The notes below the pieces were generated by a model. That model ran no database searches and was not told the DNA's origin. It worked only from the letters and a program-made list of their open reading frames with translations. Shown in pieces: positions 1,752 through 36,053 of a stretch of 36,053 nucleotides of DNA. The stretch comes from an uncultured Clostridia bacterium (GTDB lineage: Bacteria; Bacillota; Clostridia; Christensenellales; Borkfalkiaceae): the NCBI GenBank assembly GCA_904419945.1, contig CAJFTM010000012.1, forward strand, positions 1-36,053, written 5' to 3'. The position numbers were made by a program, and so were the translations under genes. Every line of letters begins with the position of its first letter. Positions within the stretch are counted from its first letter, which is position 1.

Positions 1752-1863
1752 TCCTTCCTGCCGATCTTGGAACCGAAAGGCCGATTTTGGGATCCAAAAG
1801 CGCTTCCCTGCATTCCTCCCCCGCAGAGCGCCGAAGATGAAACCAGCGATCTTGCAACACCGA

Positions 1864-1892
1864 TTGACAGCGCGGCCCACATATGTTACAAT
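1864..1892 (+). promoter_or_regulatory. Promoter of the LysR-type gene
   Basis: Perfect TTGACA (1864-1869), 17-bp spacer, TACAAT (1887-1892). AAGGAG (1900-1905) follows seven bases before the ATG at 1913, so the leader is very short. Confidence 0.8.
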
Positions 1893-1912
1893 GCAGTCAA
1901 AGGAGAAATTTT

Positions 1913-2848
1913 ATGGAACTGCGGGAATTGCGCTATTTTTTGGCGGTAGCACAGGAACTGAACATCACGAAAGCGGCCGAATACCTGTACATATCACAGC
2001 CGAGCCTTTCGAAGCAGATGCAGAATCTTGAAAAGGAAGTGGGAAAGCCGCTCTTTGTGCGCAGCAACCGCAGGATCACGCTGACGGAAACGGGAATGCT
2101 GCTCAAAAAGAGGGCGGAAGAGATCCTCTCCCTCTATGAAAAGACGGAAGCAGATCTGTCTGCCCCGCCCGACGACATCGCCGGCGAAGTGTTGATCGGC
2201 GGAGGCGAAAGCTGGGCCGTGCGGACGGTCGCCCGGGCGGCCTGCGCAATGCAGCGGCAATATCCGGCCGTGCGCTTTCAATTTTACAGCGGCGACGCGG
2301 ACGCTGTGATCGAAAAATTGGAAAAGGGACTGATCGACTTTGGGATCGTGGTCGACCTTCCCGACCTGAAAAAATACAACTCGATGCGGCTGCCGGACGC
2401 AGACCGATGGGGCGTACTCATGCGCAGGGACAGCCCGCTCGCACAGAACGACACCGTAACCGCAGAGGAACTGCGCGCGCTGCCGCTGCTCTGCTCGATG
2501 CAGTCCATGCAGAAAAACAGCCAATTGATCGAATGGCTGGGCGGCAGCTCCCGCGGGCTCCGTATCGTCGGACAGTATAACCTGCTCTACAACGCCACGC
2601 TGCTCGTCCAATCGGGCATGGGATACGCCATCTGCCTCGACAATCTCGTCAATACTACGGGAGAAAGCCCCCTCTGCTTCAAGCCGCTCGATCCGCCGCT
2701 GTATACCCATTTGGATATCGTTTGGAAAAAGCACACTGCATTTTCAAAGCCGGCACAACTTTTCCTCGATTTTCTGCAAAGGGCGATCGCCGAGCAAACT
2801 GATACTGCCGAGGCAAAAGCGGGCTGCCGATCAGAAGCAAAAAAATGA
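1913..2848 (+). CDS. LysR-family transcriptional regulator
   Basis: The 311-residue protein has the standard LysR organisation. An N-terminal helix-turn-helix spans about residues 1-60 ('MELRELRYFLAVAQELNITK', 'LYISQPSLSKQ', 'FVRSNRRITLTETG'), followed by a linker helix and a periplasmic-binding-protein-like effector domain from about residue 90 ('EVLIGGGESWAV', 'GLIDFGIVV'). The start at 1913 is set by AAGGAG seven bases upstream and a strong promoter just before it. Unlike many LysR genes it has no tightly divergent neighbour; the next genes, on the same strand, are the HhH/DUF3795 and DUF1349 genes, which may be its targets or operon partners. Effector unknown. Confidence 0.9.
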   Translation: MELRELRYFLAVAQELNITKAAEYLYISQPSLSKQMQNLEKEVGKPLFVRSNRRITLTETGMLLKKRAEEILSLYEKTEADLSAPPDDIAGEVLIGGGESWAVRTVARAACAMQRQYPAVRFQFYSGDADAVIEKLEKGLIDFGIVVDLPDLKKYNSMRLPDADRWGVLMRRDSPLAQNDTVTAEELRALPLLCSMQSMQKNSQLIEWLGGSSRGLRIVGQYNLLYNATLLVQSGMGYAICLDNLVNTTGESPLCFKPLDPPLYTHLDIVWKKHTAFSKPAQLFLDFLQRAIAEQTDTAEAKAGCRSEAKK

Positions 2849-2907
2849 CCCCCTTTTGCAGCCGATCTCTATAAAGCGCAGCCGGATCTACTACATTATT
2901 ATAAAAT

Positions 2908-2930
2908 AAGGAGGAAACATGTAAAGAAAA
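2908..2930 (+). promoter_or_regulatory. Shine-Dalgarno followed by a start-stop (ATGTAA) element
   Basis: AAGGAGG (2908-2914) is followed after four bases by ATGTAA (2919-2924), a minimal start-stop pair. The real gene's ATG at 2931 lies 16 bases beyond the Shine-Dalgarno. Ribosomes could initiate and stop at 2919 and then re-initiate at 2931, or the close ATG could dampen translation. Confidence 0.5.
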
Positions 2931-3503
2931 ATGAGCGGATTACGAAAGATACCGAATATCGGCGAAAGGACGGAACGGGACCTGATCGCGATGGGATATA
3001 CGTCGATCGAATCCTTAAAGGGAAAGCGCGCCGAGGAACTGTACGCGGAAGAATGCGCACTGCGCGGATATACCCTCGACCGCTGCCAGCTATACCTGCT
3101 GCGCGCCGTCGAGTACTTTGTCAATACAGAAAAACCGGATCCTAAAAAATGTAAATGGTGGCACTGGAAGGACGAGTTTGTACAGCCCGCACCCTGCGGC
3201 ACCAGCTGTGCGCAGGACTGCTCCTTTTACCCGGCTTCCTGCCAAGGATGCCGGGCGATCAAAGGCCTTGTCTATTGGCTGCCCTACACCGGCGACAAGT
3301 GCTGCCCCATCTATGATTGCTGCGTCAATCAAAAGGGTTCCGAACATTGCGGTACTTGTACAAAGATCCCCTGCGAACATTGGCAGCTGCGAGACCCGAC
3401 ATTGCCGGACGATTTGATCGAACAAAATTTAGCGATGCGATTGGAGCGGCTGAAAACTTCGCCCGCCTCCGAAAATACCGAAAAAGAGGAGGAATCAAAG
3501 TGA
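2931..3503 (+). CDS. Helix-hairpin-helix (Cdd1-like) protein fused to a cysteine-rich DUF3795-like domain
   Basis: The 190-residue protein has two parts. Residues 1-65 resemble the 'pathogenicity locus'/Cdd1 helix-hairpin-helix family ('IPNIGERTERDLIAMGY', 'EELYAEECALRGYTLDRCQ'). Residues 74-150 are very cysteine-rich (Cys 74, 89, 93, 97, 104, 107, 124, 125, 130, 131, 140, 143, 148), spaced as in DUF3795 and suggestive of metal or Fe-S binding. The tail is charged. It overlaps the next gene by four bases (GTGA), so the two are probably translationally coupled. Functions of both domains are poorly known; the HhH suggests nucleic-acid contact. The Shine-Dalgarno is far (16 bases) because an ATGTAA intervenes. 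Confidence 0.75.
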   Translation: MSGLRKIPNIGERTERDLIAMGYTSIESLKGKRAEELYAEECALRGYTLDRCQLYLLRAVEYFVNTEKPDPKKCKWWHWKDEFVQPAPCGTSCAQDCSFYPASCQGCRAIKGLVYWLPYTGDKCCPIYDCCVNQKGSEHCGTCTKIPCEHWQLRDPTLPDDLIEQNLAMRLERLKTSPASENTEKEEESK

Positions 3504-4102
3504 ACCTGAAACAAATGCAGTGGACGCGCACGCCGAAAGTTTTTACCATAGGCGAAGACAAGATCGAGATCGTGACGGCGCCGCACACCGACCTGTGGCA
3601 GCGGACATACTACCACTTCCGCAATGACAGTGCTCCCGTCCTGCAGATGCGTACCGCAGAAAAATTTTTTTCCTTTACCGTCAAGACGCAATTTGAGAGC
3701 AAACGGCGCTTTGACCAGTGCGGCATCGCTCTATACATCGACAGCGAAAACTGGCTGAAAGCCTCCGTCGAATACGAGAACGAACATTTCCAGCATTTGG
3801 GAAGCGTCGTGACCGTAAACGGCTACTCTGACTGGGCGACGACCGCCATCGACGCATCCATCCGGAGCATGTGGTACCGCCTCAGCCGCCGCGAGGACGA
3901 CTTTTGCATCGAATGTTCGGCAGACGGCGTCCGGTTCAGCCAGATGCGCATCTGCCATATGCCTTCCGCCACGGGAGAAGTTCCCTTCGGCATCTATGCG
4001 TGCAGCCCGGAGGACTCCTCCTTCCGCGCCGTTTTTACTCGCTTTACCCTCGGCGAATGCCAATGGAAGGCGCATGTCGGCCAGCCGCCCGACTGTGATT
4101 AG
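3500..4102 (+). CDS. DUF1349-family protein
   Basis: The 200-residue protein is read from a GTG at 3500, chosen because GAGGAGG (3486-3492) is seven bases upstream and the GTG overlaps the preceding stop. It resembles DUF1349 beta-sandwich (concanavalin-like) proteins, with strand motifs such as 'FDQCGIALYIDSENWLKASV', 'MWYRLSRREDDFCIECS' and 'VPFGIYACSPEDSSFRAVFT'. Members are cytosolic, about 200 residues long, with possible carbohydrate-binding architecture; no catalytic activity is assigned. No signal peptide is seen. Coupling to the HhH/DUF3795 gene suggests a shared process. The transcript ends at the terminator at 4148-4188. Confidence 0.8.
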   Translation: MNLKQMQWTRTPKVFTIGEDKIEIVTAPHTDLWQRTYYHFRNDSAPVLQMRTAEKFFSFTVKTQFESKRRFDQCGIALYIDSENWLKASVEYENEHFQHLGSVVTVNGYSDWATTAIDASIRSMWYRLSRREDDFCIECSADGVRFSQMRICHMPSATGEVPFGIYACSPEDSSFRAVFTRFTLGECQWKAHVGQPPDCD

Positions 4103-4147
4103 AACGATATTCCCCATCTATGTCACGCATAATACTTTACAAACAGC

Positions 4148-4188
4148 AAAAAAGATCCCCGCATCCTATTCCTGCGGGGATCTTTTTT
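4148..4188. terminator. Bidirectional terminator between convergent genes
   Basis: A 13-bp stem (4151-4163 with 4173-4185, core GATCCCCGCA/TGCGGGGATC) is flanked by a T run on the plus strand (4183-4188) and an A run on the other side (4148-4153). It can terminate both the DUF1349 gene and the minus-strand cluster ending at 4197. Confidence 0.9.
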
Positions 4189-4196
4189 GATAATAT

Positions 4197-5486
4197 TCAA
4201 TTTGTGCGTGTATGCAGCATGATATCGATGATCTCTTTATCCGTCTGCGCCATACCCTCGTGCGCGAGGCGTCCGACATTGCGGATCGTGTTTTCCACTC
4301 CCTTGGTGACGATACCGTCGCCGCCATAGAATTGGTTGCCCTCCTGAAACATTTCATAACCGAGGATCCCTGCATCGACCGACTGCGAAATTTTGGCGGC
4401 ACAGGAAGCCTTGGCCCCGTCACAGATCATGCCGGAAACGATGGCCACCGCATTGACGACGGTATGCGCGATCTCCTCGGGACCGCCGCCGTACAGAAAA
4501 GCGATGCCCGCCCCCGCGCCGACACCTGCCGATACCGCGCCGCAATAGGCGGACAGGGTGCCGATACCCGTCTTTTGATGGATCGTGATGAGGTCGGACA
4601 GGGCGAGCGCGCGGTACATTTCCTCTTCACTCTTGCCCAACTCGCGCGCATAGACGATGACGGGGACCGAGGCGGTCAGCCCCTGATTCCCGCTGCCCGA
4701 GACGATGACGACGGGCATTTCGCAGCCGTTCATGCGCGCATCCGAACCGGCGGCGGCATAGGCGCGCGCTTTGAGGCGGATGTCGCCGTTCGCGCGCTTT
4801 AAAAGCACCTTGCCGATATTGGCTCCGTAAGGATTGCGCAGCCCCTCCTCGGCTATGGCCATATTGTACTCGACTTGCAGGGAAAGGACGGGTTTGATCT
4901 TTTCGAGGGGAACTTCCTTTGCAAATCGATAGATCTGTTCGACGCTCAGACAGGAGCGGTCCGTCCGCTTTTCCGTTCCGCAGGGGCCGATCTCCTTTTC
5001 ATACAGCGCCTTGCCGTCCAACTCTTTGCGGACGATATTGGTGTGAAAATCGACGATGCGCACGGACGCGATATGGTTTGCCGAACGCAGCGTTATACAG
5101 ACATCAAAGATATGCGGCGTATCGGCGAGCTCGACGCGAACGGGCAAAGTCCGGCGCAGCTGCTTGATCTGTTCGATCTGCTCCGCCGTGACGGAGGAAA
5201 TGACCTCCAGCTGCTTTTCGGCAATGCCCGCCGCAATGCCCGCGCAGACAGCAGCATCGATGCCGCGCATCCCGTCCGTATGCGGGACGACGACGCTCTT
5301 GACGTTTTTCAGGATATTGCCGCTGACGGCAATGACCGCCTCCTGCGGCATTTCACCCAACAATTCGCGCGCGGTCGCGGCCGCGTATGCGACGGAAATG
5401 GGTTCGGTACAGCCCATTGCCGGGCGCAGTTCTTCCTTCAAAATTGCGATATATTTTTCAAAAAGTGTCGGATCCATTGGTTTCAT
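4197..5486 (-). CDS. L-cysteine desulfidase-like enzyme (UPF0597 / serine dehydratase alpha family)
   Basis: From an ATG at 5486 this is a 429-residue protein, the usual length for the UPF0597/CyuA (YhaM) family. That family degrades cysteine to pyruvate, sulfide and ammonia using an Fe-S cluster. Visible signatures: 'LRPAMGCTEPISVAYAAA' with Cys26, 'HTDGMRGIDAA', 'VSGSGNQGL', 'SAYCGAVSAG' and 'MICDGAKASCAAKI'; the cysteines in these motifs are plausible cluster ligands. AAAGGA just before the ATG could act as an internal ribosome site. There is no stop codon between this part and the membrane domain encoded at 5487-5906, so it may instead be the C-terminal part of a 569-residue fusion. It ends the minus-strand opp cluster and would use cysteine released from imported peptides. 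Confidence 0.85.
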   Translation of the reverse strand: MKPMDPTLFEKYIAILKEELRPAMGCTEPISVAYAAATARELLGEMPQEAVIAVSGNILKNVKSVVVPHTDGMRGIDAAVCAGIAAGIAEKQLEVISSVTAEQIEQIKQLRRTLPVRVELADTPHIFDVCITLRSANHIASVRIVDFHTNIVRKELDGKALYEKEIGPCGTEKRTDRSCLSVEQIYRFAKEVPLEKIKPVLSLQVEYNMAIAEEGLRNPYGANIGKVLLKRANGDIRLKARAYAAAGSDARMNGCEMPVVIVSGSGNQGLTASVPVIVYARELGKSEEEMYRALALSDLITIHQKTGIGTLSAYCGAVSAGVGAGAGIAFLYGGGPEEIAHTVVNAVAIVSGMICDGAKASCAAKISQSVDAGILGYEMFQEGNQFYGGDGIVTKGVENTIRNVGRLAHEGMAQTDKEIIDIMLHTRTN

Positions 5487-5906
5487 TCTCTTCCTTTGCA
5501 GGAGATCGCGGATAAAAATGACTGCAAACGCAATGCCCGCGCAGGTCAGCGCACTGCCGAGCCCCGTATAAAACATTGCCGTGCAGCGATCGGGTATCCA
5601 CCCCATGGTGCGCAACAGGATGCCCATCGCCATCATGCAGATCATGAGGATGTATGCCTTGACGTCAAAAAACTTTAAAAAACAGTGCCTGCGCGCGCCG
5701 TCATACCCGTAGATCCGGCGCGTATGCTTGACGACAATGCGCCAAAACATCCCGCCGAAGAGCACAAAGACGGCAATGGCGGACACGATCATCCACCACT
5801 CCCATTTTACGATCAGGCACGCCGCGATGCCCAAGCGCAGGATATTGGCACCCGCAGCCGTCCAGACGAGCGCGGCGATCAGCACTAAATATTCTTTTTT
5901 GACCAC
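5487..5906 (-). CDS. Four-helix membrane domain, in frame with the desulfidase-like gene
   Basis: A GTG at 5906 overlaps the stop of the preceding ABC gene by one base (TAGTG), with a weak GGAAG upstream. It opens 140 codons that read without a stop straight into the enzyme at 5486. The segment contains about four hydrophobic helices ('YLVLIAALVWTAAGANIL', 'WWMIVSAIAVFVLFGGMFW', 'AYILMICMMAMGILL', 'GLGSALTCAGIAFAVIF') separated by basic loops. It looks like a small stand-alone clostridial membrane protein that normally ends after the 'RDLLQRKR' stretch. Either the stop has been lost, giving a membrane-tethered enzyme, or two products come from one frame. Function unknown. Confidence 0.6.
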
Positions 5907-6901
5907 TATTCTTCCGCCCGATCCGCATGCAGGAAGCAGGCGGCATAATGATCTTCTTCGATCTTGACCAGCGGCGGCTCGCTGAGGCTGCAGCAGGGCT
6001 GCTCCTCGGGACAGCGGCCGCAGAAACGGCAGCCGGGCGGCGGATTGATGGGGCTCGGCACCTCGCCCTGCAAGCGCTTGCGCTCGCGCGGGCAATCGAT
6101 ATCGACGTCAAAAATAGAGCCCATCAGTGCGCGCGTATACGGATGCGCAGGATTTTTGAAGATCTTTTGTACGTTCCCATACTCCATCACTTTGCCGAGG
6201 TACATGACGACGGCACGATCGCTGACGCGCTTGACGACGGCGAGGTTGTGCGAAATGAAGAGATAGGTAATGTGATATTTTTCCTGCAGATCCATCAGCA
6301 AGTTGAGGATCTGCGCATGGACAGACACGTCCAATGCGGAGACCGGCTCGTCGCAGACGAGGTACTTGGGTTTTAAAATGAGCGCGCGGGCAATGCCGAT
6401 ACGCTGCTTTTGACCGCCCGAAAAATCGGACGGAAAGCGATCCATATCCCCTTCCGAAAGGCCGACCTCCTTGAGCATATCGCCGACCGTTTTGCGCATC
6501 TCGGCATAGGTGTAGCCGCCCTTTATGCGCAGCGGCTCGGAGATGAGATCGAACACGCTGAAACGGGGATTGAGCGAAGAAAACGGATCCTGGAAAATGA
6601 CCTGCATGCTGCGGCGCGCTTCCTTTAACTGGCGGCTGGTCATCGCCGTCAGCTCCTGTCCGTCAAAAAAGATCTTGCCGGAATCGACGCGCTGCATGCC
6701 CAGCGTACAATTGGCGAGCGTACTCTTGCCGCAGCCGGACTCGCCCACGACGCCGAACGTTTCCCCCGGATAGATCTCGAGAGAGACGTCCGTGACTGCC
6801 TTGACGTAGCGCTTTTTTTGAAACGGGAAATCTTTTTTAACGGGAAAAGCCACGCTGACGTGCTCCATTTTGAGGAGGGGCTCTCTTTCATTGCTTGTCA
6901 T
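5906..6901 (-). CDS. oppF: Oligopeptide ABC transporter, ATP-binding protein (OppF type)
   Basis: The 331-residue protein is a nucleotide-binding subunit of a peptide importer. Walker A is 'GESGCGKST', the ABC signature is 'FSGGQKQRIGIARA', and Walker B is 'YLVCDEPVSALD', followed by the switch histidine in 'LFISHNLAVV'. The C-terminal Opp/Dpp domain carries the 'HPYTRALM' motif and the cysteine cluster 'CRFCGRCPEEQPCC' seen in this subfamily. The first 14 bases overlap the end of the oppD-like gene, indicating coupling. It pairs with the other ATPase to drive uptake through OppB/OppC. The F-versus-D label follows gene order. Confidence 0.93.
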   Translation of the reverse strand: MTSNEREPLLKMEHVSVAFPVKKDFPFQKKRYVKAVTDVSLEIYPGETFGVVGESGCGKSTLANCTLGMQRVDSGKIFFDGQELTAMTSRQLKEARRSMQVIFQDPFSSLNPRFSVFDLISEPLRIKGGYTYAEMRKTVGDMLKEVGLSEGDMDRFPSDFSGGQKQRIGIARALILKPKYLVCDEPVSALDVSVHAQILNLLMDLQEKYHITYLFISHNLAVVKRVSDRAVVMYLGKVMEYGNVQKIFKNPAHPYTRALMGSIFDVDIDCPRERKRLQGEVPSPINPPPGCRFCGRCPEEQPCCSLSEPPLVKIEEDHYAACFLHADRAEE

Positions 6902-7913
6902 AACGGATCTCCTTATAATTCCAGCAGCGCACGCAGCGGCCCCCCTCTAACTGCTCCAGCGGGGGCATCTCCTGTTTGCAGCGCTCCGTCGCATGGACGC
7001 AGCGGGGATGGAAATAACAGCCGGACGGCTTATGCATGGGGCTGGGCAGCGAAGACGGGATCTGGACAAAGCGCTTGCGGTCGTCGTTGATGCGGGCAAC
7101 CGAACCGAGCAGGCCGTGCGTATACGGGTGCAGCGGATTTTTGAACAGCTCGCGCGTGCGGGCGCACTCTACGATCTTGCCGCAGTACATGACATAGATC
7201 TTGTCCGCCATATTCATGACGATGGACAAGTCATGCGTAATGAGCATGAGGGATGTCTTCTGTTTGCGCTGCAACTCTTTGAGGATATCGAGCACCTGCG
7301 CCTGAATGGTGACGTCGAGCGCGGTCGTCGGCTCGTCCGCGATGATCAGGTGCGGATTGCAGGCAAATGCCATGGCGATGAGCACGCGCTGGCGCATACC
7401 GCCCGAAAGCTGATGCGGATATGCCTTGTAGCGCAGTTCCGCATCGCTGATGCCGACCAACTTGAGCGCCTCGATGGTGCGGCGCTTCGCCTCCTTTTTG
7501 CGGGCAAAACGGGACAGAGCTTTTCCCGTTTCGTCGCTGAAATGCTCTTTTCCGTGCGCGAGGAAGATCTCGTCGATCTGCCGCCCCACCGTCATGACGG
7601 GATTGAGCGCAGTCAGCGCGTCCTGAAAGATCATGGCGACGTCCTTGCCGCGCACTTTTTGCATCTGCTTGTCGGTCAGGTCCTTGATATCGATGCCGCC
7701 GAGGACGAGCTTGTCGACGCGGGTAATGGCGGGCGGAGAGGAGAGCAGCTTCATCACGGCGAGCGACGTGACGCTCTTGCCGCAGCCGCTCTCACCGACG
7801 ATCGCGACGCATTCGCCCTCATCGATCTCAATGTCGATCCCCTCGACTGCGCGCACGATCCCCGCTTCGGTCGGGAAGATGACCTTTAAGTTTTCCACTT
7901 CCAAAGCTTTCAT
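6888..7913 (-). CDS. oppD: Oligopeptide ABC transporter, ATP-binding protein (OppD type)
   Basis: The 341-residue ATPase has Walker A 'GESGCGKS', signature '[14 protein letters not shown]', Walker B '[12 protein letters not shown]' and switch 'LITHDLSIV'. The C-terminal peptide-transporter domain has '[11 protein letters not shown]' and the cysteines of '[14 protein letters not shown]'. A small insertion ('[20 protein letters not shown]') lies after the Q-loop region. Its ATG overlaps the oppC stop by four bases (ATGA) and its end overlaps oppF, so the genes are one operon. It energises peptide import together with OppF. Confidence 0.93.
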
Positions 7914-9154
7914 CTCTCCCCTCCCTTTTCGGCGTTCACCTCGGCCGCCGCATCTTCGGCGCGCGCTTCGGCAAACGGTGCCTCCGCGGCGGCCTGTTCT
8001 GCCGCGGCGATCTGCGCCGCCGGTACAAAAGCTCCCGCTGCCGCAGCCTGCGCACCGGCAACTCCCGCCGCAGCGACCTCTTCAACTGCCGCCCCTTCCG
8101 GCGCGGCCATCTCCGCTGCGATATCGGAAGGCCCCGCCTCTTCGAGGACGGGCGAAGGCGCCTGGTATTCGCCCTTCATTTTGCTGACATCATCCATAGA
8201 GGCAAACACCTCTTCCAAATATGTATTGTTGAGATGTTTGAATACTTTGAGCATATTGCTCCCCTTGCGCATGCGGGGATTGAGGATCTCTTCGAGAGCC
8301 AAGCCGATGCGCATAAAGGAATAGACGGACAGGAAGATGCCGACGCCGGGTGCGAGGATACTCCACCAATGGCCAAACAGCATGGCGCCGCTGCTCTGCG
8401 CATCGGCGAGCATTTTGCCCCAGCTGATCGCCGTCGGGTTGCCGAGGCCGAGGAAGCTGAGTCCCGCTTCGGCGACCATGATGCCCGCGCTGGTGAGCGC
8501 CGTGCTCATGATCAGCAAGTTGGAGACGGCCGGAAGGATATGCCTCCACATGATATACCAGCGGCTCGCGCCGGCGATCTCTGCCGCCTTGACATAATTT
8601 GCGTTTTTGATCAGCATGACCTGCGAGCGCACGACGCGCGCGAGGCCGGTCCAGCCGAATGCGGCGAAAACAATGACGATGACGACGTAACTCGTGCCGA
8701 GCACGTTGGTCATGACGATGACCAGCGGCAGCGTCGGGATGACGAGGAGAACGTCGACGATGCGCATGATGACGGTATCGACCCAACCGCCGAGATAGCC
8801 GGCCGCAACGCCCAAAAGAGAACCGAGCACCGCGATGACGAGGCCTGTGATCAGGCCGATGCTCAGGCTGGAGCGCGTGCCGTAGATGAGCATGGAAAAG
8901 ATATCCTGCCCCGTCGTGATGGATGTGCCGAGCAGGTGCTCCCACGAGGGTGTCGAGCCCTTAGCGGCGCGCTGCGTGACGTCGTACGGATCGTACGGGG
9001 CGATGAGCGGCGCGAAGATGGCGAGGATGGCGAGAAAGGCAAAGATGATCAGGCCGATCCGCCCCTGCTTGTGCATCCATAACTTCTTAAAAAATCGGCC
9101 GATCGCGTACAGAGCGCGCAGCAATTTGCAGCCGATATACTTCAATGTCTTCAT
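7910..9154 (-). CDS. oppC: Oligopeptide ABC transporter permease OppC with long alanine-rich tail
   Basis: From the ATG at 9154 the product is 414 residues. That start is six bases from GGGAGG (9161-9166); the ATG at 9157 is too close. Residues 30-295 are a standard OppC permease: N-terminal helix, periplasmic loop 'APYDPYDVTQRAAKGSTPSW', about six membrane helices, and the coupling loop 'EIAGASRWYIMWRHILP' at 192-208. Unusually, about 118 residues follow the last helix, and from about 341 onward they are mostly alanine and glutamate. OppC proteins normally end near residue 300. The tail would be cytoplasmic; its role is unknown. Overlaps oppB upstream and oppD downstream. Confidence 0.92.
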   Translation of the reverse strand: MKTLKYIGCKLLRALYAIGRFFKKLWMHKQGRIGLIIFAFLAILAIFAPLIAPYDPYDVTQRAAKGSTPSWEHLLGTSITTGQDIFSMLIYGTRSSLSIGLITGLVIAVLGSLLGVAAGYLGGWVDTVIMRIVDVLLVIPTLPLVIVMTNVLGTSYVVIVIVFAAFGWTGLARVVRSQVMLIKNANYVKAAEIAGASRWYIMWRHILPAVSNLLIMSTALTSAGIMVAEAGLSFLGLGNPTAISWGKMLADAQSSGAMLFGHWWSILAPGVGIFLSVYSFMRIGLALEEILNPRMRKGSNMLKVFKHLNNTYLEEVFASMDDVSKMKGEYQAPSPVLEEAGPSDIAAEMAAPEGAAVEEVAAAGVAGAQAAAAGAFVPAAQIAAAEQAAAEAPFAEARAEDAAAEVNAEKGGER

Positions 9155-10149
9155 CATCTGCCTCCCAGCGTCACGCGCGGATCTAGCAGGCAATAGACAA
9201 AGTCTGTCAAAAGATTGGCTACGAGCGCAAATGCGGACATGAAGATCATAATGCCCATCATCAGCGGGTAGTCGTTGTTGCTGTTTGCCGTCAAAAACAG
9301 GGTGCCCATGCCGTTCCAGTTAAAGATCTGTTCAATGACGACAGCGCCGCCGATAAGCGTACTCACGTTCATGCCGAACTGCGTCACGATGGGCAGCAGC
9401 GCGTTGCGCAGCGTGTGCCCGTAGATCACCTTGTTGTTGGAAAGGCCCTTTGCCTTCGCCGTCAGGATGAAGTCATCTTCCGATACGGCGATGACGCTGT
9501 TTCGGGTGGCCTGACCGTACGAAACGATGCTGCCGATCGCCATCGCAAATACAGGAAGCGACGCATTATATGCCACCTTTGATATCGCCTCCCAACTCCA
9601 ATCGAAGCCGGCGACCATGTTTTGATCGGTATAGGCTGGGAATATCTCCCACTCAAATCCGAGATAGAATGATAGGATAAGCGCAATAAAGAATGCCGGC
9701 AGGGCTGTCGTAAACGTCGACGCGTTCAGCAGCGCCCGATCCTGCCATCGCCCTCGTCGCCAGGCGGCCATCGTGCCGATGATCACGCCGATCACCAGCG
9801 AGATGAGCAGGTTGGAGACGGAAAGCACGAGCGTCCACGGGAGGCGTTCTGCAATCAAATCGATGACCGGTTCATTCTTTGTATACGAAGTACCGAGATC
9901 GCCTGTAAAAAGGTTGCCGAGATAGGTGATGTACTGCTGAAAGGTGGATCCATCCAGACCGTACTGCTGACGCACAAGCTCCTTGATCGCTTCATACTCG
10001 GCGTCAGTCATGCCGGCCGTCTGTGCGGGATAATAGCGAGAGGCCGGATCGTCTACGCCAATGCGCGGAATAAAAAAGCAGAGCGTGACCACAACGAAAA
10101 AGATAAACAGCGTGAGCAGGATGCGCTTGATAACATAGGATGCTTTCAT
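9154..10149 (-). CDS. oppB: Oligopeptide ABC transporter permease OppB
   Basis: The 331-residue integral membrane protein has the N-terminal helix 'YVIKRILLTLFIFFVVV', the external loop with 'QYGLDGSTFQQYITYLGN' and 'GDLGTSYTKNEPV', then five further helices. The coupling motif is 'TAKAKGLSNNKVIYGHTLRN'. It forms the translocation channel with OppC. The stop codon overlaps the ATGs of oppC. A three-base gap separates it from oppA. Confidence 0.93.
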   Translation of the reverse strand: MKASYVIKRILLTLFIFFVVVTLCFFIPRIGVDDPASRYYPAQTAGMTDAEYEAIKELVRQQYGLDGSTFQQYITYLGNLFTGDLGTSYTKNEPVIDLIAERLPWTLVLSVSNLLISLVIGVIIGTMAAWRRGRWQDRALLNASTFTTALPAFFIALILSFYLGFEWEIFPAYTDQNMVAGFDWSWEAISKVAYNASLPVFAMAIGSIVSYGQATRNSVIAVSEDDFILTAKAKGLSNNKVIYGHTLRNALLPIVTQFGMNVSTLIGGAVVIEQIFNWNGMGTLFLTANSNNDYPLMMGIMIFMSAFALVANLLTDFVYCLLDPRVTLGGR

Positions 10150-10152
10150 ATA

Positions 10153-12045
10153 TTACACCACCTTTTCCAAAACTTCGAGCGTATCCAAGTTGAATACAGT
10201 CTCGCCCGGGTTTACAACATAGCCGGTGAAGCGGTCTGTCCGCGCCACGGAAATCACATTGCTCGTATAAACAGGGATCTTATAATAATCCTCCGCCAGT
10301 CGTTGCTGGATTTGTTTGACTAGCTCGTACTTAGTATTCTGATTGAGAGTGGTACGCATCTCCTCAATCAGCTCGTTCAGCTCCTCGTCCATCAGCCTCC
10401 CATAATTGGAAGAGCGATTGTCTACCTGCACGAAATGCGAGCGGTACATGATGTCGACATTGGAGATATTGAGGATGGTCGCCTGGAAGGTCATATCGAA
10501 ATTACCGTCGAACAGGTAGGTATCCTCCGCCATCGATCCTTCCGCCTTGTACTCGACCTCGACTCCAATGCGCTGGAACTGCTGTTGCAAGTAGGACACC
10601 AGTTCCAATTCGCCCGGGTTTGCAAGGATCTCAAAGTGCAGGCGCTTGCCGTCGGCAAGACGATAGCCTTTGCTGTCCTTTTCCGGATAGATGCCGTCTA
10701 GGATGGCGTTTGCCTCCGCGACGCGGGCTTCGTAATCGCCGGAAAGGATGTCCGCCTCTGGGTTGTACAGTTCCGTCTGGCTGGGCAGCATCAATCCTGC
10801 CGATGCGGGCGTGCCTTCGCCGTTGAGGACGGAAGTGATAATCCTGTCTTGATCGATGGCGAGGGCGATTGCCTTGCGCACATCCTTATTTTTGAGGACT
10901 GTGCGCATGTCCGAATCCTGCTCTTCCTTCGGATTGACGTTCATGACCAACGTTTGAATCGAGGTCCCCTCCGCTTTCAACAATTCGATGCTCTCTTCCT
11001 CTTCAAATAATTGGCTGTAATTAGAGCTCATGGCAACGTCGAGCATATCGACATATCCCTTCAGCAGAGCATAGATCGCCGTATTTTGATCCAGATAGAG
11101 CATGAACTTGATCGTATCGACCTTATAGAGGGGCTGCGTGGGATCGTTTTCATCTTTGATATGATAATCCATCCCACGGTTTTGCAGGACGATCATCTGC
11201 GTGCTTGACTGCACCCTATCCAGTGTCCACGCCCCGCAGCCGACCGGATTTTCATATTGCTGCCGAAACGCTTCAGGCAGCTCCGAACTCGTATTGTTGA
11301 GCTTATGCTCCTCGGAGACGATTGGCTGCCAAATGTGCTCAGGCAGGATGAGTATGGAGGAAAAGAGCGTCGCCACCGCTCCAAGGACGGGGCGTACATG
11401 CAGGTACATGACCGTTTCGTGCTCGTCTTCCTCATACGGATACTTACCCCATTCGTCGTGATCAAAAGTATACATGCCCTGCGTCTGCAATACGCCGCCT
11501 TCCGATTTATGCATGAGGTCGGTCGTCCATGCAAGCGCCCCCGCATGGCCGGACAATGTATTGTCCGTCGCAATGTCCAGCGTATAATAGACATCCTCGA
11601 CGGTGACGGGTTCGCCATCGCTCCAAGTCGCGTCGTCAAACAGCGTCAGCTTGATGACCATGTATTCGGAATCGTTTTCCGCATAATACTGTTCGATCCT
11701 GTCGTAATCGTTTTCCCCGTTTTCGTTGACGAGGGGGGCACCGTTCAAGTCGGCATAACACCACTCCTTGGCGAGGCAGGGTTCGTATTGGCCAGTCTCC
11801 TCGTCCAGCGTGAACAGAGTGTTATAGATCAGGCTGGCGACAGTCGGAGCAACGCCGTCGCGCGACTGCCAAGGGAAAAAGGTCGTGGGAAAAGAGTCTG
11901 TCGAGACCTCGCCGACATAGAGCGTCGAACTTGTATCCTCCCGACGCTCCGCAATGGAGGTGCCGCACCCCGAAGCCAGCAGCGCGGTCAAAAGCATGGC
12001 GCCGCTCAGCGCGAATACGGTCACTTTTCGGAATAAATTTTTCAT
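10153..12045 (-). CDS. oppA: Oligopeptide-binding lipoprotein (OppA type)
   Basis: The 630-residue extracellular substrate-binding protein has a lipoprotein signal peptide with lipobox 'LASGC' (Cys27). Family 5 solute-binding features include 'WSDGEPVTVEDVYYTLDI', 'DVRKAIALAIDQDRI' and a C-terminal 'DEELNELIEEMRTTLN' segment. It delivers peptides to OppB/OppC. At 630 residues it is longer than many OppA proteins (about 540). No convincing Shine-Dalgarno precedes the ATG at 12045, while a strong hairpin (12130-12164) sits upstream in the mRNA; both may set its expression relative to the neighbouring genes. Confidence 0.92.
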   Translation of the reverse strand: MKNLFRKVTVFALSGAMLLTALLASGCGTSIAERREDTSSTLYVGEVSTDSFPTTFFPWQSRDGVAPTVASLIYNTLFTLDEETGQYEPCLAKEWCYADLNGAPLVNENGENDYDRIEQYYAENDSEYMVIKLTLFDDATWSDGEPVTVEDVYYTLDIATDNTLSGHAGALAWTTDLMHKSEGGVLQTQGMYTFDHDEWGKYPYEEDEHETVMYLHVRPVLGAVATLFSSILILPEHIWQPIVSEEHKLNNTSSELPEAFRQQYENPVGCGAWTLDRVQSSTQMIVLQNRGMDYHIKDENDPTQPLYKVDTIKFMLYLDQNTAIYALLKGYVDMLDVAMSSNYSQLFEEEESIELLKAEGTSIQTLVMNVNPKEEQDSDMRTVLKNKDVRKAIALAIDQDRIITSVLNGEGTPASAGLMLPSQTELYNPEADILSGDYEARVAEANAILDGIYPEKDSKGYRLADGKRLHFEILANPGELELVSYLQQQFQRIGVEVEYKAEGSMAEDTYLFDGNFDMTFQATILNISNVDIMYRSHFVQVDNRSSNYGRLMDEELNELIEEMRTTLNQNTKYELVKQIQQRLAEDYYKIPVYTSNVISVARTDRFTGYVVNPGETVFNLDTLEVLEKVV

Positions 12046-33392: not shown

Positions 33393-33465
33393 CAGGTCCG
33401 CGCGCGAAAGCGCAATTCTTTCGCAAAAAAAATCAGAAGCGGCGCCGGAATCTTTGGCAAAAATA

Positions 33466-33494
33466 TTGATAAATTTTTGCGAGTATGGTATAAT
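33466..33494 (+). promoter_or_regulatory. Promoter of the scaffold-GGGtGRT operon
   Basis: TTGATA (33466-33471), 17-bp spacer, perfect TATAAT (33489-33494) preceded by TGG (extended -10). It fires away from the tyrS promoter, with about 70 bases between the two -35 elements. Confidence 0.85.
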
Positions 33495-33548
33495 TTTAAG
33501 CGGTCAAACTGACAATGTTACGGACAAATTTATATCGGAGGAAGTAGT

Positions 33549-34250
33549 ATGCACTATTCACGCGAAGTTGAAGAGATGATCTGCGTAACCAAGGGCCCCT
33601 ACCACGGCCCCGCGCCCATCCCCGAAGAAGGAAAATGGGTACAGGCAAAGGAGATCAAAGACATTTCCGGCCTCACGCACGGCGTCGGCTGGTGTGCGCC
33701 GCAGCAGGGCGCCTGCAAACTGACGCTCAACATCAAGGAGGGCGTCATCCAGGAAGCGCTCGTCGAAACGCTGGGCTGCTCGGGCATGACCCACTCGGCC
33801 GCCATGGCTGCGGAGATCCTGCCGAAAAAGACCATCCTCGAAGCGCTCAACACCGACCTCGTGTGCGACGCGATCAATACGGCGATGCGCGAGCTGTTCC
33901 TGCAGATCGTGTACGGCCGCAGCCAGTCTGCCTTCTCCGACGACGGCCTGGTGATCGGTGCCGGCCTCGAAGACCTCGGCAAAGGCACCCGCTCGCAGAT
34001 CGGCACCATGTATTCCACTGCCGCCAAGGGCGTGCGTTACCTCGAATTGACGGACGGCTACGTCAAGAGAATGGCACTGGATGCGAACAACGAAGTGATC
34101 GGCTATGAGTTCGTCAACTTCGGCAAGATGATGGACTTCGTGAAGGGCGGCATGGACGCCAACGAAGCGCTGCAGAAGGCGACCGGCCACTACGGCAGAT
34201 TCACCGAAGCAGACGGGGCGGTCAAGTACATCGACCCCCGCAAACAGTAA
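33549..34250 (+). CDS. NifU-like iron-sulfur cluster assembly scaffold protein
   Basis: The 233-residue protein is of the type always found beside GGGtGRT proteins and usually labelled iron-sulfur cluster assembly scaffold. Potential ligands are Cys49 and Cys56 ('GWCAPQQGACKL'), Cys77 ('TLGCSGMTHSAA') and Cys106. The central 'EALVETLGCSGMTHS' segment recalls the NifU/IscU fold. GGAGG (33537-33541) is seven bases from the ATG. The gene is followed after 14 bases by the GGGtGRT gene, so both are one operon. Its client proteins are unknown. Confidence 0.85.
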   Translation: MHYSREVEEMICVTKGPYHGPAPIPEEGKWVQAKEIKDISGLTHGVGWCAPQQGACKLTLNIKEGVIQEALVETLGCSGMTHSAAMAAEILPKKTILEALNTDLVCDAINTAMRELFLQIVYGRSQSAFSDDGLVIGAGLEDLGKGTRSQIGTMYSTAAKGVRYLELTDGYVKRMALDANNEVIGYEFVNFGKMMDFVKGGMDANEALQKATGHYGRFTEADGAVKYIDPRKQ

Positions 34251-34264
34251 GGAGGTAGCGAGCT

Positions 34265-35269
34265 ATGAGCATCACGTTTGAAGGTTACGAAAGAAGAATT
34301 GGCCAGATCCGTCCCGTCATGGACAAGTACGGCATCAAAGATTTTGAAGACGCGAAGCGCATCTGCAACGAGAAGGGCTTCGACGCATACGACATCGTGA
34401 AGGGCGTACAGCCCATCGCCTTTGAAAACGCCGGCTGGGCGTATACCCTCGGTTCCGCCATCGCCATCCAGAAGGGATGCACGAAGGCTGCGGACGCGGC
34501 GGAAGCCATCGGCGAAGGCTTGCAGGCGTTCTGCATCCCCGGCTCCGTCGCCGATCAGCGCAAAGTCGGCCTCGGCCACGGCAACCTCGCGGCCATGCTG
34601 CTGCGTGACGAGACCAAGTGCTTCTGCTTCCTCGCCGGCCACGAATCCTTTGCGGCCGCAGAGGGCGCGATCGGCATTGCGAAGAATGCGAACAAGGTCC
34701 GCAAAGAGCCGCTGCGCGTCATCCTCAACGGCCTCGGCAAGGATGCGGCGTACATCATCTCCCGCATCAACGGCTTCACCTATGTGCAGACCAAGTACGA
34801 TTACTATACCGGCGAACTGACCGTCGTGAAAGAGACCCCCTACTCCACCGGCGAGCGCGCGAAAGTCAAGTGCTACGGCGCGGACGACGTGAACGAGGGC
34901 GTCGCGATCATGATCAAGGAGAACGTTGACGTCTCCATCACCGGCAACTCGACCAACCCGACCCGCTTCCAGCACCCCGTCGCGGGCACCTATAAGAAAT
35001 GGGCTTGGGACAACGGCAAGAAGTACTTCTCCGTGGCATCCGGCGGCGGCACGGGCCGTACCCTGCACCCGGACAACATGGCGGCAGGCCCTGCCAGCTA
35101 CGGCATGACGGACACGATGGGCCGTATGCACTCGGATGCGCAGTTTGCGGGCTCCTCGTCCGTCCCTGCACACGTCGAGATGATGGGGCTGATCGGCGCC
35201 GGCAACAACCCGATGGTCGGCATGACCGTCGCTTGCGCAGTCGCTGTGCAGGAAGGTATGACCAAGTAA
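34265..35269 (+). CDS. GGGtGRT protein
   Basis: The 334-residue protein carries the name-giving motif 'SGGGTGRTLHPDN' at residues 259-271 and has normal full length. Other notable parts are 'GLGHGNLAAMLLRDETKCFC' and 'FLAGHESFAAAEGAIGIAKN'. Its biochemical role is not established; the family is co-encoded with a NifU-like scaffold in anaerobes, suggesting Fe-S or redox work. GGAGG is about nine bases before the ATG. The last 14 codons lie within a 47-bp core that recurs three times downstream (35349, 35471, 35890) with only synonymous changes, making the gene's 3' end part of a repeat array. Confidence 0.92.
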   Translation: MSITFEGYERRIGQIRPVMDKYGIKDFEDAKRICNEKGFDAYDIVKGVQPIAFENAGWAYTLGSAIAIQKGCTKAADAAEAIGEGLQAFCIPGSVADQRKVGLGHGNLAAMLLRDETKCFCFLAGHESFAAAEGAIGIAKNANKVRKEPLRVILNGLGKDAAYIISRINGFTYVQTKYDYYTGELTVVKETPYSTGERAKVKCYGADDVNEGVAIMIKENVDVSITGNSTNPTRFQHPVAGTYKKWAWDNGKKYFSVASGGGTGRTLHPDNMAAGPASYGMTDTMGRMHSDAQFAGSSSVPAHVEMMGLIGAGNNPMVGMTVACAVAVQEGMTK

Positions 35270-35272
35270 GTT
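35226..35272 (+). repeat. Gene-end repeat core, copy 1 (inside the GGGtGRT gene)
   Basis: The 47-bp core runs from CCGTCGCTTGCGCAG to TAAGTT and encodes the final residues V-A-C-A-V-A-V-Q-E-G-M-T-K and the stop. It is the reference for copies 2-4. Confidence 0.95.
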
Positions 35273-35291
35273 GGTTTATATGAAATTGAAA

Positions 35292-35321
35292 ACGGGTTCC
35301 CGACAGGGAGCCCGTTTTTTT
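35292..35321 (+). terminator. Terminator of the GGGtGRT operon (class I)
   Basis: Stem ACGGGTTCCC (35292-35301) / GGGAGCCCGT (35306-35315) with one G-T pair, then a run of seven Ts. Confidence 0.92.
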
Positions 35322-35322
35322 A

Positions 35323-35361
35323 GCGCAAGCGACATGGTCCTTTTTGGACCGTCGCTTGCGC
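35323..35361 (+). repeat. Inverted repeat joining unit 1 and copy 2
   Basis: GCGCAAGCGAC (35323-35333) is the exact reverse complement of GTCGCTTGCGC (35351-35361), which begins copy 2. Inside it GGTCC (35336-35340) pairs with GGACC (35346-35350) around TTTTT. Confidence 0.9.
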
Positions 35362-35395
35362 AGTGGCTGTGCAGGAAGGTATGACCAAGTAAGTT
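35349..35395 (+). repeat. Gene-end repeat core, copy 2
   Basis: Identical to copy 1 except one base: a valine codon GTC is GTG. The reading frame to the stop is intact but has no start: an in-frame TAG lies upstream at 35321-35323. It is followed by the same class I 3' sequence as the gene. Confidence 0.95.
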
Positions 35396-35414
35396 GGTTT
35401 ATATGAAATTGAAA

Positions 35415-35443
35415 ACGGGTTCCCGACAGGGAGCCCGTTTTTT
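35415..35443 (+). terminator. Class I terminator after copy 2
   Basis: Same 10-bp stem as at 35292-35315, followed by six Ts. The preceding 'TTGGTTTATATGAAATTG' is also duplicated, so the whole 3' region is repeated with a period of about 123 bases. Confidence 0.85.
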
Positions 35444-35444
35444 A

Positions 35445-35483
35445 GCGCAAGCGACATGGTCCACTTTGGGCCGTCGCTTGCGC
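35445..35483 (+). repeat. Inverted repeat joining unit 2 and copy 3
   Basis: GCGCAAGCGAC (35445-35455) against GTCGCTTGCGC (35473-35483). The inner arms are GGTCC and GGGCC, which still pair using one G-U, although the loop sequence has changed. Confidence 0.88.
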
Positions 35484-35517
35484 AGTCGCCGTACAGGAAG
35501 GTATGACAAAGTAAGTT
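35471..35517 (+). repeat. Gene-end repeat core, copy 3
   Basis: Three differences from copy 1, all third-position and synonymous (GCT to GCC, GTG to GTA, ACC to ACA). It is followed by class II 3' sequence (TAAGTTCACG...), unlike copies 1 and 2. Confidence 0.95.
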
Positions 35518-35556
35518 CACGAAAAAAGTTTTAAGCTGTTAAAACTTTTTTCCGTG
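35518..35556 (+). terminator. Class II hairpin after copy 3
   Basis: Long AT-rich stem: CACGAAAAAAGTTTTAA pairs with TTAAAACTTTTTT-CGTG with one bulged C and the loop GCTG. It can act as a bidirectional terminator. The same hairpin follows copy 4 at about 35937-35975. Confidence 0.7.
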
Positions 35557-35568
35557 AGTAAAAGACAA

Positions 35569-35606
35569 CCCCGCGGGCACGCGCAAGCGCTGACCGCGGG
35601 GGTTTT
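35569..35606 (+). terminator. Class II GC terminator
   Basis: CCCCGCGG (35569-35576) pairs with CCGCGGGG (35594-35601), followed by GTTTTC. A near-identical copy is at about 35988-36025. Confidence 0.75.
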
Positions 35607-35610
35607 CCTC

Positions 35611-35653
35611 GGGGCGGCATTTTTCAGGGCACACCACCCATAAATGCCGCCCC
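35611..35653. repeat. Inverted repeat around GGGGCGGCATTT
   Basis: GGGGCGGCATTT just after 35610 pairs with AAATGCCGCCCC (about 35642-35653), loop of about 20 bases. The left arm recurs at about 36029-36041 just before the window ends. Confidence 0.7.
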
Positions 35654-35816
35654 TTCACCTTTCCCCGTTCGCCGCCCACGCGGCGCATAGGGCAAAAGCC
35701 AAAAGTGTAATTTTGGCTTTTGCGAACCCATAAATGCCGCCCCTTCACCTTTCCCCGTTCGCCGCCCACGCGGCGCATAGGGCAAAAGCCAAAAGTGTAA
35801 TTTTGGCTTTTGCGAA
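35637..35816. repeat. Exact 90-bp tandem duplication with internal hairpin
   Basis: Bases 35637-35726 are repeated exactly as 35727-35816. Each copy ends with a perfect 13-bp stem (GCAAAAGCCAAAA / TTTTGGCTTTTGC, loop GTGTAA). I see no gene; the minus-strand reading frame across it is a by-product of the repeats. Confidence 0.92.
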
Positions 35817-35830
35817 AAAATTGAAAGCAG

Positions 35831-35860
35831 AAACGGGTTCCCGCAAGGGGGCCCGTTTTT
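35831..35860 (+). terminator. Class I-like terminator before copy 4
   Basis: ACGGGTTCCCG...GGGGGCCCGT stem, then TTTTT. Compared with 35292-35315 one A-T pair has become G-T, so the pairing is kept. It is followed by the inverted arm GCGCAAGCGAC and copy 4. Confidence 0.8.
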
Positions 35861-35863
35861 GCG

Positions 35864-35902
35864 CGCAAGCGACATGGTCCAACTTTGGGCCGTCGCTTGC
35901 GC
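35864..35902 (+). repeat. Inverted repeat joining unit 3 and copy 4
   Basis: GCGCAAGCGAC (about 35864-35874) is again the reverse complement of GTCGCTTGCGC at the start of copy 4 (35892-35902); the inner GGTCC/GGGCC arms flank a longer loop. Confidence 0.85.
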
Positions 35903-35936
35903 AGTCGCCGTGCAGGAAGGGATGACAAAGTAAGTT
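35890..35936 (+). repeat. Gene-end repeat core, copy 4
   Basis: Differs from copy 1 by three synonymous third-position changes (GCT to GCC, GGT to GGG, ACC to ACA). It is followed by class II 3' sequence almost identical to that after copy 3, running to the window edge. Confidence 0.95.
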
Positions 35937-36053
35937 CACGAAAAAAGTTTTAAGCTGTTAAAACTTTTTTCCGTGAGTAAAAGACAACCCCGCGGGCACG
36001 CGCAAGCGCTGACCGCGGGGTTTTTCCTCGGGGCGGCATTTTATGGGCACACC

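Follow-up and report, generated by a model that had tools for sequence, protein, structure and literature searches.

Repeated ends of the GGGtGRT gene in Candidatus Borkfalkia and a proposed integration site at the 3' end of this gene in Clostridia

Background

Why should the last codons of a conserved gene be found repeated, each time lacking a start codon, downstream of the gene itself? The question is raised by DNA from an uncultured Clostridia bacterium of the family Borkfalkiaceae (GenBank assembly GCA_904419945.1, contig CAJFTM010000012.1), analysed over a stretch of 36,053 nt (positions 1 to 36,053 of the forward strand; hereafter 'the window'), near the right-hand edge of which a GGGtGRT gene is followed by an array of copies of its own 3' end. 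Both this DNA and the array-bearing relatives described below belong to the genus Candidatus Borkfalkia. A sequence-only reading of the window had located a 47 bp core at positions 35226, 35349, 35471 and 35890, had noted that the copies vary at five positions, all of them synonymous third codon positions, and had likened the repeats to the attachment sites of elements that integrate at a gene's 3' end and restore it, or to an array of exchangeable gene ends. Here, the 3' end of the GGGtGRT gene is supported as an integration site in related Clostridia, and the Borkfalkia repeats are most likely the record of repeated landings of mobile DNA.

Results

The array and its distribution in Borkfalkia

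Both the coordinates of the core and the five synonymous third-position differences were exactly as claimed (Table 1). The GGGtGRT gene terminates in GTCGCTTGCGCAGTCGCTGTGCAGGAAGGTATGACCAAGTAA, and this 42 nt end, found at 35228, 35351, 35473 and 35892, has an identical translation in every copy; these last codons are the proposed integration site. The contig stops within the array. In this paper G-numbers denote genomes and C-numbers contigs, with G000 being the window's own assembly; contig C22 opens with exactly the 99 bases that close the window, an identity that resembles a k-mer overlap left by the assembler. Extending the contig rightwards, which had been suggested as a way of finding a recombinase or cargo between further copies, showed that the array continues on C22 with one more 3' untranslated region (UTR) and left hairpin arm and is over about 250 bases in, with neither recombinase nor cargo recognised between the copies. 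Beyond it lie a flank common to the relative G016 and then opposite-strand open reading frames (ORFs) that are BspA-like by eye.

The locus could be read in 34 of 40 genomes of the genus; the six in which it was unread (G012, G015, G022, G029, G062 and G063) comprise four without a match to the gene and two outside that gene search. Arrays with junction hairpins are present in 17 of the 34 locus assemblies, including that of the window. In G005 and G011 the contig ends no more than 30 bases past the gene, so that array status cannot be judged, and the extra copy in G034 is decayed and lacks a hairpin. The distribution is patchy, requiring seven changes by parsimony on a gene-body tree, three of which are forced by its starred branches; this tree has 31 rows and 14 array genomes, being without G030 (two alleles), G032 (gene cut by the contig) and G024 (no gene).

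Units in Borkfalkia are about 80-420 bp in size and carry unrelated 3' UTRs. In all 16 array genomes in which the gene end was found, the first unit is short, at 62-114 nt, and the last often has a longer and presumably older 3' UTR. The contig of G024 holds five full gene-end copies and six hairpins, ending before the gene. The type-A unit that comes first in G030 is separated from the gene in G016 by a unit with a new terminator. Terminal hairpins with no gene end after them are found in G024, G030:C5, G061 and G000/G016. The array contig G030:C5 is from Candidatus Borkfalkia faecigallinarum, and probably represents another strain in its bin. Two bins, G030 (C46, C5) and G048 (C14, C32), contain two GGGtGRT alleles each, which point to mixed strains or, in the case of G048, possibly to both ends of an insertion.

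Repeat collapse or the joining of chimeric contigs might generate such a pattern, and both the end of the window's contig within the array and the two gene alleles in the G030 bin would fit. Such an artefact is nevertheless highly improbable, because arrays are found in half of the locus assemblies, with species-specific sequence; the units also differ from one another, and the continuation on C22 is exact over 99 bp. A scan for direct repeats across 411 kb (the window, C22 and one contig each of G016 and G034; at least 24 bp long, near-identical and at most 450 bp apart) found, beyond this locus in G000 and G034, only matches that look like coding repeats or are shorter than 30 bp; as it overlooked the diverged copies of G016, it rules out only near-identical arrays elsewhere.

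The copies diverged mostly as coding sequence

Variable columns were counted once per genome in the 17 array genomes, including copy 3 of G017 but no copy without a recognisable stop (G024 unit 7, G026 units 2-3, G030 unit 3 and G061 unit 3). Differences between copies within a genome fall at codon positions 1, 2 and 3 in the numbers 7, 6 and 49, such that 49 of 62 are in third positions (binomial p = 2e-13). The chance of about 1 in 240 first attached to the window copies equals (1/3)^5. Among the 55 variable codons, 43 are synonymous and 12 nonsynonymous, the departures including a premature stop and a V-to-D change in G017, V-to-A in G031 and M-to-T in G030; the description of the differences as exclusively synonymous therefore holds for the window but not for the genus. 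The distribution over codon positions and the ratio of 43 to 12 codons indicate that most divergence occurred while the copies coded, so the copies mostly diverged as coding ends, some decaying later. The start-less copies had been supposed to have diverged in working genes and to have arrived afterwards; the codon bias largely upholds the first part, while arrival from elsewhere is not needed. A start-less copy can be the displaced former end of the same gene rather than an import.

The same gene end in related Clostridia

A degenerate peptide-pattern search recovered one 32 kb IMG/VR contig (IMGVR_UViG_3300018878_002442) on which the gene end occurs twice; behind each copy, in the same orientation, lies a gene for a tyrosine recombinase of 312-314 aa (PF00589), and these modules are probably elements in tandem. 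The contig (L283/L284) has its integrase modules about 8 kb apart and also contains a resolvase and genes that appear phage-like by eye. Twenty-one homologues of the viral integrase were examined from samples of the order and class. Eight of these, at 49% identity or more, all lie 105-139 nt past the stop of a GGGtGRT gene, while the other 13, at about 44% identity or less, lack a GGGtGRT gene end in the 700 nt upstream. Together with the two viral integrases, the eight gene-end integrases form one clade (99/98), and seven of the eight have a GACACATYA motif somewhere in the 250 nt before the integrase. An integrase adjoining the gene end is present in eight other Clostridia as well as on the viral contig.

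Inserts between gene ends were also found within the window's own family. In a sample of 151 genomes of its family, 123 of which gave a GGGtGRT gene match, six (G449, G492, G477, G451, G516 and G493) have a second partial gene end on the same contig and strand, at distances of 1.6, 1.7, 2.5, 3.2, 10.4 or 32 kb; in G508 the further gene end is on a different contig, and other cases are split at contig ends. As this search was unlikely to see copies of 12 codons, having found none of those in Borkfalkia, the count is a lower bound. In G215, from another family, the integrase is followed by about 4 kb and then a second gene end. Differences within seven pairs of gene ends (G215, five of the six family genomes and the viral pair, omitting the decayed copy of G493 and the separate contigs of G508) fall at codon positions 1, 2 and 3 in the numbers 8, 3 and 39, affecting 36 codons synonymously and 5 nonsynonymously.

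In G492 the gene itself ends in EEAMK* and the displaced copy in EEAMKA*, and of the 11 genus relatives of G492 that were read, seven have EEAMKA* and none EEAMK*. The insert in G516 carries the pPIWI_RE defence system (PprPIWI, PprDinG and PprRE) together with HipA and a helix-turn-helix (HTH) protein, with no integrase among the six ORFs scanned. Five copies (those of G492, G477, G451, G493 and one viral copy) have a duplicated core that starts at GARATGATGGG or immediately before it; the start is at GGGCAACAACCC in G516 and G508 and further upstream in G215, G290 and G449. In G451:C16 (L342/L343), 32 kb of mostly carbohydrate uptake- or breakdown-like genes by eye, with no obvious integrase, separates near-identical gene ends.

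A single gene end was present within the fetched flank at 15 loci from other genera of the window's family, and, of 16 loci from other families of the order, none of the 13 that were readable repeats an exact gene-end 14-mer within 1.5 kb. The viral contig and the family genomes with second ends rule out that such repetition is confined to Borkfalkia. These comparisons support the 3' end of the GGGtGRT gene as an integration site in related Clostridia, at which the elements restore the gene. In Borkfalkia as in the relatives, a direct repeat of the gene end is present and the coding sequence is restored, as is expected of 3'-end integrative elements.

A bulged hairpin at each junction

Each junction between copies in the window is a hairpin of the form GCGCAAGCGAC-AT-GGTCC...GG(A/G)CC-GTCGCTTGCGC, reading in full at junction 1 GCGCAAGCGAC-AT-GGTCC-TTTTT-GGACC-GTCGCTTGCGC; folding was computed for two of the three in the window. 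The right arm is the beginning of the next gene-end copy, the duplicated core starting at ATGGTC...GACC-GTYGC, and the left arm is the reverse complement of the right with the addition of an unpaired AT. This AT is present in 35 of 38 pattern matches downstream of the gene when 0-4 bases are allowed between GCRAC and GGTC; the other three are a TT at the contig edge in G005 and two without bases that, by eye, are not array junctions. A second match in G026 (C13:10270) is coding-like and was taken as chance. The loops vary in both length and sequence.

In an alignment of 29 distinct junctions (34 rows less five exact duplicates), 90.1% of cells pair as the 15-pair structure requires, against 81.0% when shuffled; 48 cells are changed on both sides, against 16.3, and the covariation score is 0.285, against 0.133. 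None of 500 shuffles was as high in any of the three, and slid controls were far lower. The two arms clearly track each other, and the left arm tracks the sequence of the gene. In the VACAVA lineage, the stem codons also seem poor in third-position changes (3 of 38 against 25% expected, p = 0.007), in a post hoc test of one lineage in which the expectation assumes that all such sites vary alike. We infer that the junction hairpin may be a recombination site.

One way of reading these hairpins is as structure-recognised sites, with the units being mobile gene-end cassettes inserted at the gene by a putative recombinase as in an integron. The tracking of the arms, the near-constant AT bulge within variable loops and the uniformly short first unit would all be consistent with this, but we regard it as quite unlikely. 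The two measures least inflated by relatedness stand at the level of the shuffles, with 5 pairs changed on both sides against 4.3 (203 of 500 shuffles as high) and 11 further pair types against 12.9 (490 of 500), so that few of the compensatory changes are independent events; in addition, the right arms match the gene's own codons rather than the attC box, and the window units contain only small mechanical ORFs. An integron proper was rejected, as none of the 40 genomes reaches the cut-off for the integron integrase (TIGR02249).

Searches for an agent in Borkfalkia

Only one PF00589 match, 22 kb away in G016, was found on the gene-bearing Borkfalkia contigs; serine recombinases were not searched for. 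At 25 loci, all but one around Borkfalkia tyrosine recombinases, there is no adjoining GGGtGRT gene end. Neither nucleotide searches of phages and plasmids nor strict junction patterns in viral contigs produced a match; the hits of a looser pattern in viral contigs, among those listed, roughly fit chance and were disregarded. A Y1 transposase of the IS200/IS605 or repetitive extragenic palindromic (REP) type was set aside as a necessary partner, as seven array genomes (G003, G009, G014, G017, G032, G035 and G061, 66-89% complete) have no PF01797 match. A Xer/dif site was rejected, there being no sustained change of GC skew at the gene in G016:C2 or G034:C1. Elsewhere in the window's assembly, G000:C48 (L278) encodes at 2237-3307 a 356-aa tyrosine recombinase, presumably XerS-like, and PF00589 matches of similar size are found in many Borkfalkia genomes.

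Coordinates and neighbouring sequences

Coordinates are collected in Table 1. An interspersed intergenic repeat of about 230-300 bp with several hairpins, comprising TTCACGAAA...TTTCCGTGA, a GC-rich terminator-like hairpin and GGGCACAC..., occupies 35515-35815 and 35934-36053 of the window, as well as C22:1-190, C17:1499-1665, C7:39252-39405 and C4:53989-54028. Within unit 3 it holds two 90 bp tandem copies, and it is also found 3' of the gene end in other Borkfalkia species. Nothing in the window from 33400 to 36053, this repeat included, reaches the gathering score of an Rfam family, and a known structured RNA was rejected on these grounds. Immediately upstream of the GGGtGRT gene, an ORF of 233 aa (33549-34250) is without a Pfam match; it may be one of the NifU-like iron-sulfur scaffold neighbours of GGGtGRT.

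Table 1. Positions of the GGGtGRT gene, the units and hairpins of its array, and a cargo-bearing insert in a relative
Feature	Position	Strand	Description
GGGtGRT gene	34265..35269	+	ORF; Pfam PF14057, E=2.3e-197; last codons are array copy 1
ATGGTCGGCATGACC-GT inside GGGtGRT gene	35213..35229	+	Counterpart of junction core ATGGTC...GACC-GT; likeness of copies to gene starts here
Unit 1	35228..35333	+	106 nt; gene end with stop at 35267-35269, then terminator and left arm
Terminator-like hairpin with T run, AAAACGGGTTCCC...GGGAGCCCGTTTTTTT	35289..35321	+	By eye
Junction hairpin 1	35323..35361	+	AT bulge 35334-35335; fold -19.9 kcal/mol, z -8.5
Unit 2	35351..35455	+	105 nt; gene-end copy 2 (stop ends 35392), terminator as in unit 1, left arm
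Junction hairpin 2	35445..35483	+	From position and pair counts
Unit 3	35473..35873	+	401 nt; gene-end copy 3 (stop ends 35514), interspersed repeat, terminator, left arm
Junction hairpin 3	35863..35902	+	Fold -18.2 kcal/mol, z -5.5
Unit 4	35892..36053	+	Gene-end copy 4 (stop ends 35933); leaves window, resumes on contig C22
pPIWI_RE three-gene system, HipA and HTH protein	L344 (G516:C17) 1792-11442		Between two GGGtGRT gene ends

Discussion

On balance, we lean towards the view that the Borkfalkia array consists of remnants or miniatures of gene-end-integrating elements, partly multiplied by tandem duplication. The 3' end of the GGGtGRT gene would act as a chromosomal attachment site, where an incoming element recombines with the gene end, bringing its own in-frame last codons and terminator and displacing the resident end downstream. 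In Borkfalkia, the locus would have turned into an array of units of about 80-420 bp that carry no cargo and represent remnants or miniatures of such elements. A unit would combine a restored gene end and a 3' UTR with one half of an inverted-repeat recombination site, and ordinary tandem duplication would then have multiplied some of the units. The copies would differ mainly at synonymous sites because each once ended a working gene. We infer that the array was founded by the same kind of process as in the relatives, through some other recombinase. The units could be remnants of a different integrase's elements, or one old event could have been spread by homologous recombination, or the hairpin itself could be the recombination site.

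In two Borkfalkia pairs, gene ends are more divergent than the genes that carry them. Third-position differences number 38 of 321 in the gene body and 8 of 13 over the final 13 codons between G000 and G026 (Fisher p = 5e-5), and 38 of 321 and 7 of 13 between G016 and G019 (p = 5e-4; here the rise begins just past the stem), the end being about five times as divergent as the body in both. Among array-free pairs, the two closest (G020/G023 and G021/G025) have no such jump (3 of 13 each). This is suggestive of gene ends having been exchanged between lineages. Array-free pairs also show some excess, however: over pairs with a body divergence below 0.30, the mean ratio of end to body divergence is 1.49 where neither genome has an array (32 pairs), 1.88 where one has (56) and 1.90 where both have (38).

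A number of observations weigh against a mobile origin. The array pair G013/G018 is without an end difference, and array-free pairs (G001/G007, G007/G025, G027/G034 and G011/G027) have ends at 0.46-0.62 against bodies at 0.23-0.25, although these are somewhat more distant than the two closest array-free pairs and G011 is counted as array-free with a contig that ends at the gene; part of the end excess is accordingly general. No cargo gene was recognised in the window units, the complete ones being 105-401 nt, and neither cargo nor an integrase gene was recognised in Borkfalkia units at large, while relatives have an integrase beside the site and cargo between the repeats. The earlier attachment-site idea thus holds for the locus more readily than for the units themselves. 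The viral integrase has no match in any of the 40 genomes at E ≤ 1e-10, an empty answer that alone shows nothing, and the signature hairpin of the integrase clade, GACACATCA...TGATGTGTC, is absent from all 32 Borkfalkia loci searched. Furthermore, the Borkfalkia core starts at ATGGTC...GACC and not at the GARATGATGGG of five of the relatives' copies, and inspection of the relatives' elements by eye revealed no bulged hairpin of the Borkfalkia type. Finally, some units are plainly tandem duplicates: units 1/2 and 3/4 of G000 are near-identical pairs, those of G024 form alternating pairs, and units 2 and 3 of G017 have their 3' UTR in common.

Duplication and homologous recombination alone are a serious rival, if a less probable one. 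A single ancestral partial duplication of the gene end would have made the hairpin junction, with no site-specific recombinase acting in Borkfalkia; unequal crossing-over and gene conversion among the near-identical copies would later have made the array grow, shrink and become homogeneous and would have swapped ends into the gene. Besides the tandem pairs, the lack of the integrase clade in the genus, the near-absence of PF00589 from the gene-bearing contigs, the patchiness of the array and the raised ends of array-free genes all favour such an account. It does not readily explain why relatives use this gene end as an integration site, why terminal hairpins occur with no gene end behind them, why the 3' UTRs of units are unrelated, or why third-position changes seem to be so few in the stem. 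The sequence-only reading had named simple local duplication followed by random mutation, nonsynonymous changes included, as an outcome that would tell against it; both are present to a degree, as tandem units and 12 nonsynonymous codons, but the bias remains synonymous.

At the other extreme, there is a slim chance that Borkfalkia possesses a miniature cassette system that swaps the coding end of one conserved gene by means of mobile units of about 100 bp and a hairpin-recognising recombinase. The units, consisting solely of gene end, terminator and half-site, would then be mobile within and between genomes, and, since a bulged hairpin rather than a fixed sequence would be recognised, the site could follow the synonymous evolution of the gene. 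If the hairpin is indeed a recombination site, it would show how such a site can stay functional within a changing coding sequence.

Returning to landings of mobile DNA as the preferred origin, the comparisons point to a recurrent integration site at the GGGtGRT 3' end in at least six families of Clostridia, with an integrase beside the gene end in five and cargo in the window's own family. They also identify the clade of integrases that uses the site and place a defence system there, and the synonymous differences at this locus would record the replacement of gene ends.

Several known systems resemble the array in part. In diversity-generating retroelements, the sequence downstream of a gene holds a copy of its 3' end that lacks a start codon. 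The Borkfalkia copies differ mostly synonymously, unlike the protein-changing variation of such elements, which were set aside for this reason; reverse transcriptase was not searched for. The attC sites of integrons have extrahelical bases and low sequence conservation. Borkfalkia has no integron integrase or recognised cassette genes, and the anchor of its array is the coding end of a conserved gene. The likeness to integrons, the cassette arrays of which have folded attC hairpins, is in tandem units parted by palindromic sites (PMC3053210, PMC11641012). Salmonella genomic island 1 (SGI1) and related genomic islands are inserted at the 3' end of trmE, and thus, like the elements at GGGtGRT, at the 3' end of a protein-coding gene; the gene is a different one, and the opening of the abstract mentions no miniature array (PMC8409611). 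Similarly, integrative and mobilizable elements (IMEs), integrative and conjugative elements (ICEs) and prophages with tyrosine recombinases integrate at gene ends, with tandem accretion and decayed cis-mobilizable elements (CIMEs) (PMC5704250). The Borkfalkia array has in common with IMEs, ICEs and CIMEs the site-specific insertion at a gene end and the tandem, generally decayed elements flanked by attachment sites (PMC5704250), and differs from them in the small size of its units, in their lack of recognised cargo and in its bulged-hairpin joints. Among the open-licence papers searched, titles and the starts of abstracts contain no link between GGGtGRT and integration and nothing on this site, and the hotspot at the GGGtGRT 3' end is apparently unreported. 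Gene-end integration is known in principle, and it is in form that a miniature array with a bulged hairpin tracking the sequence of its gene is unusual.

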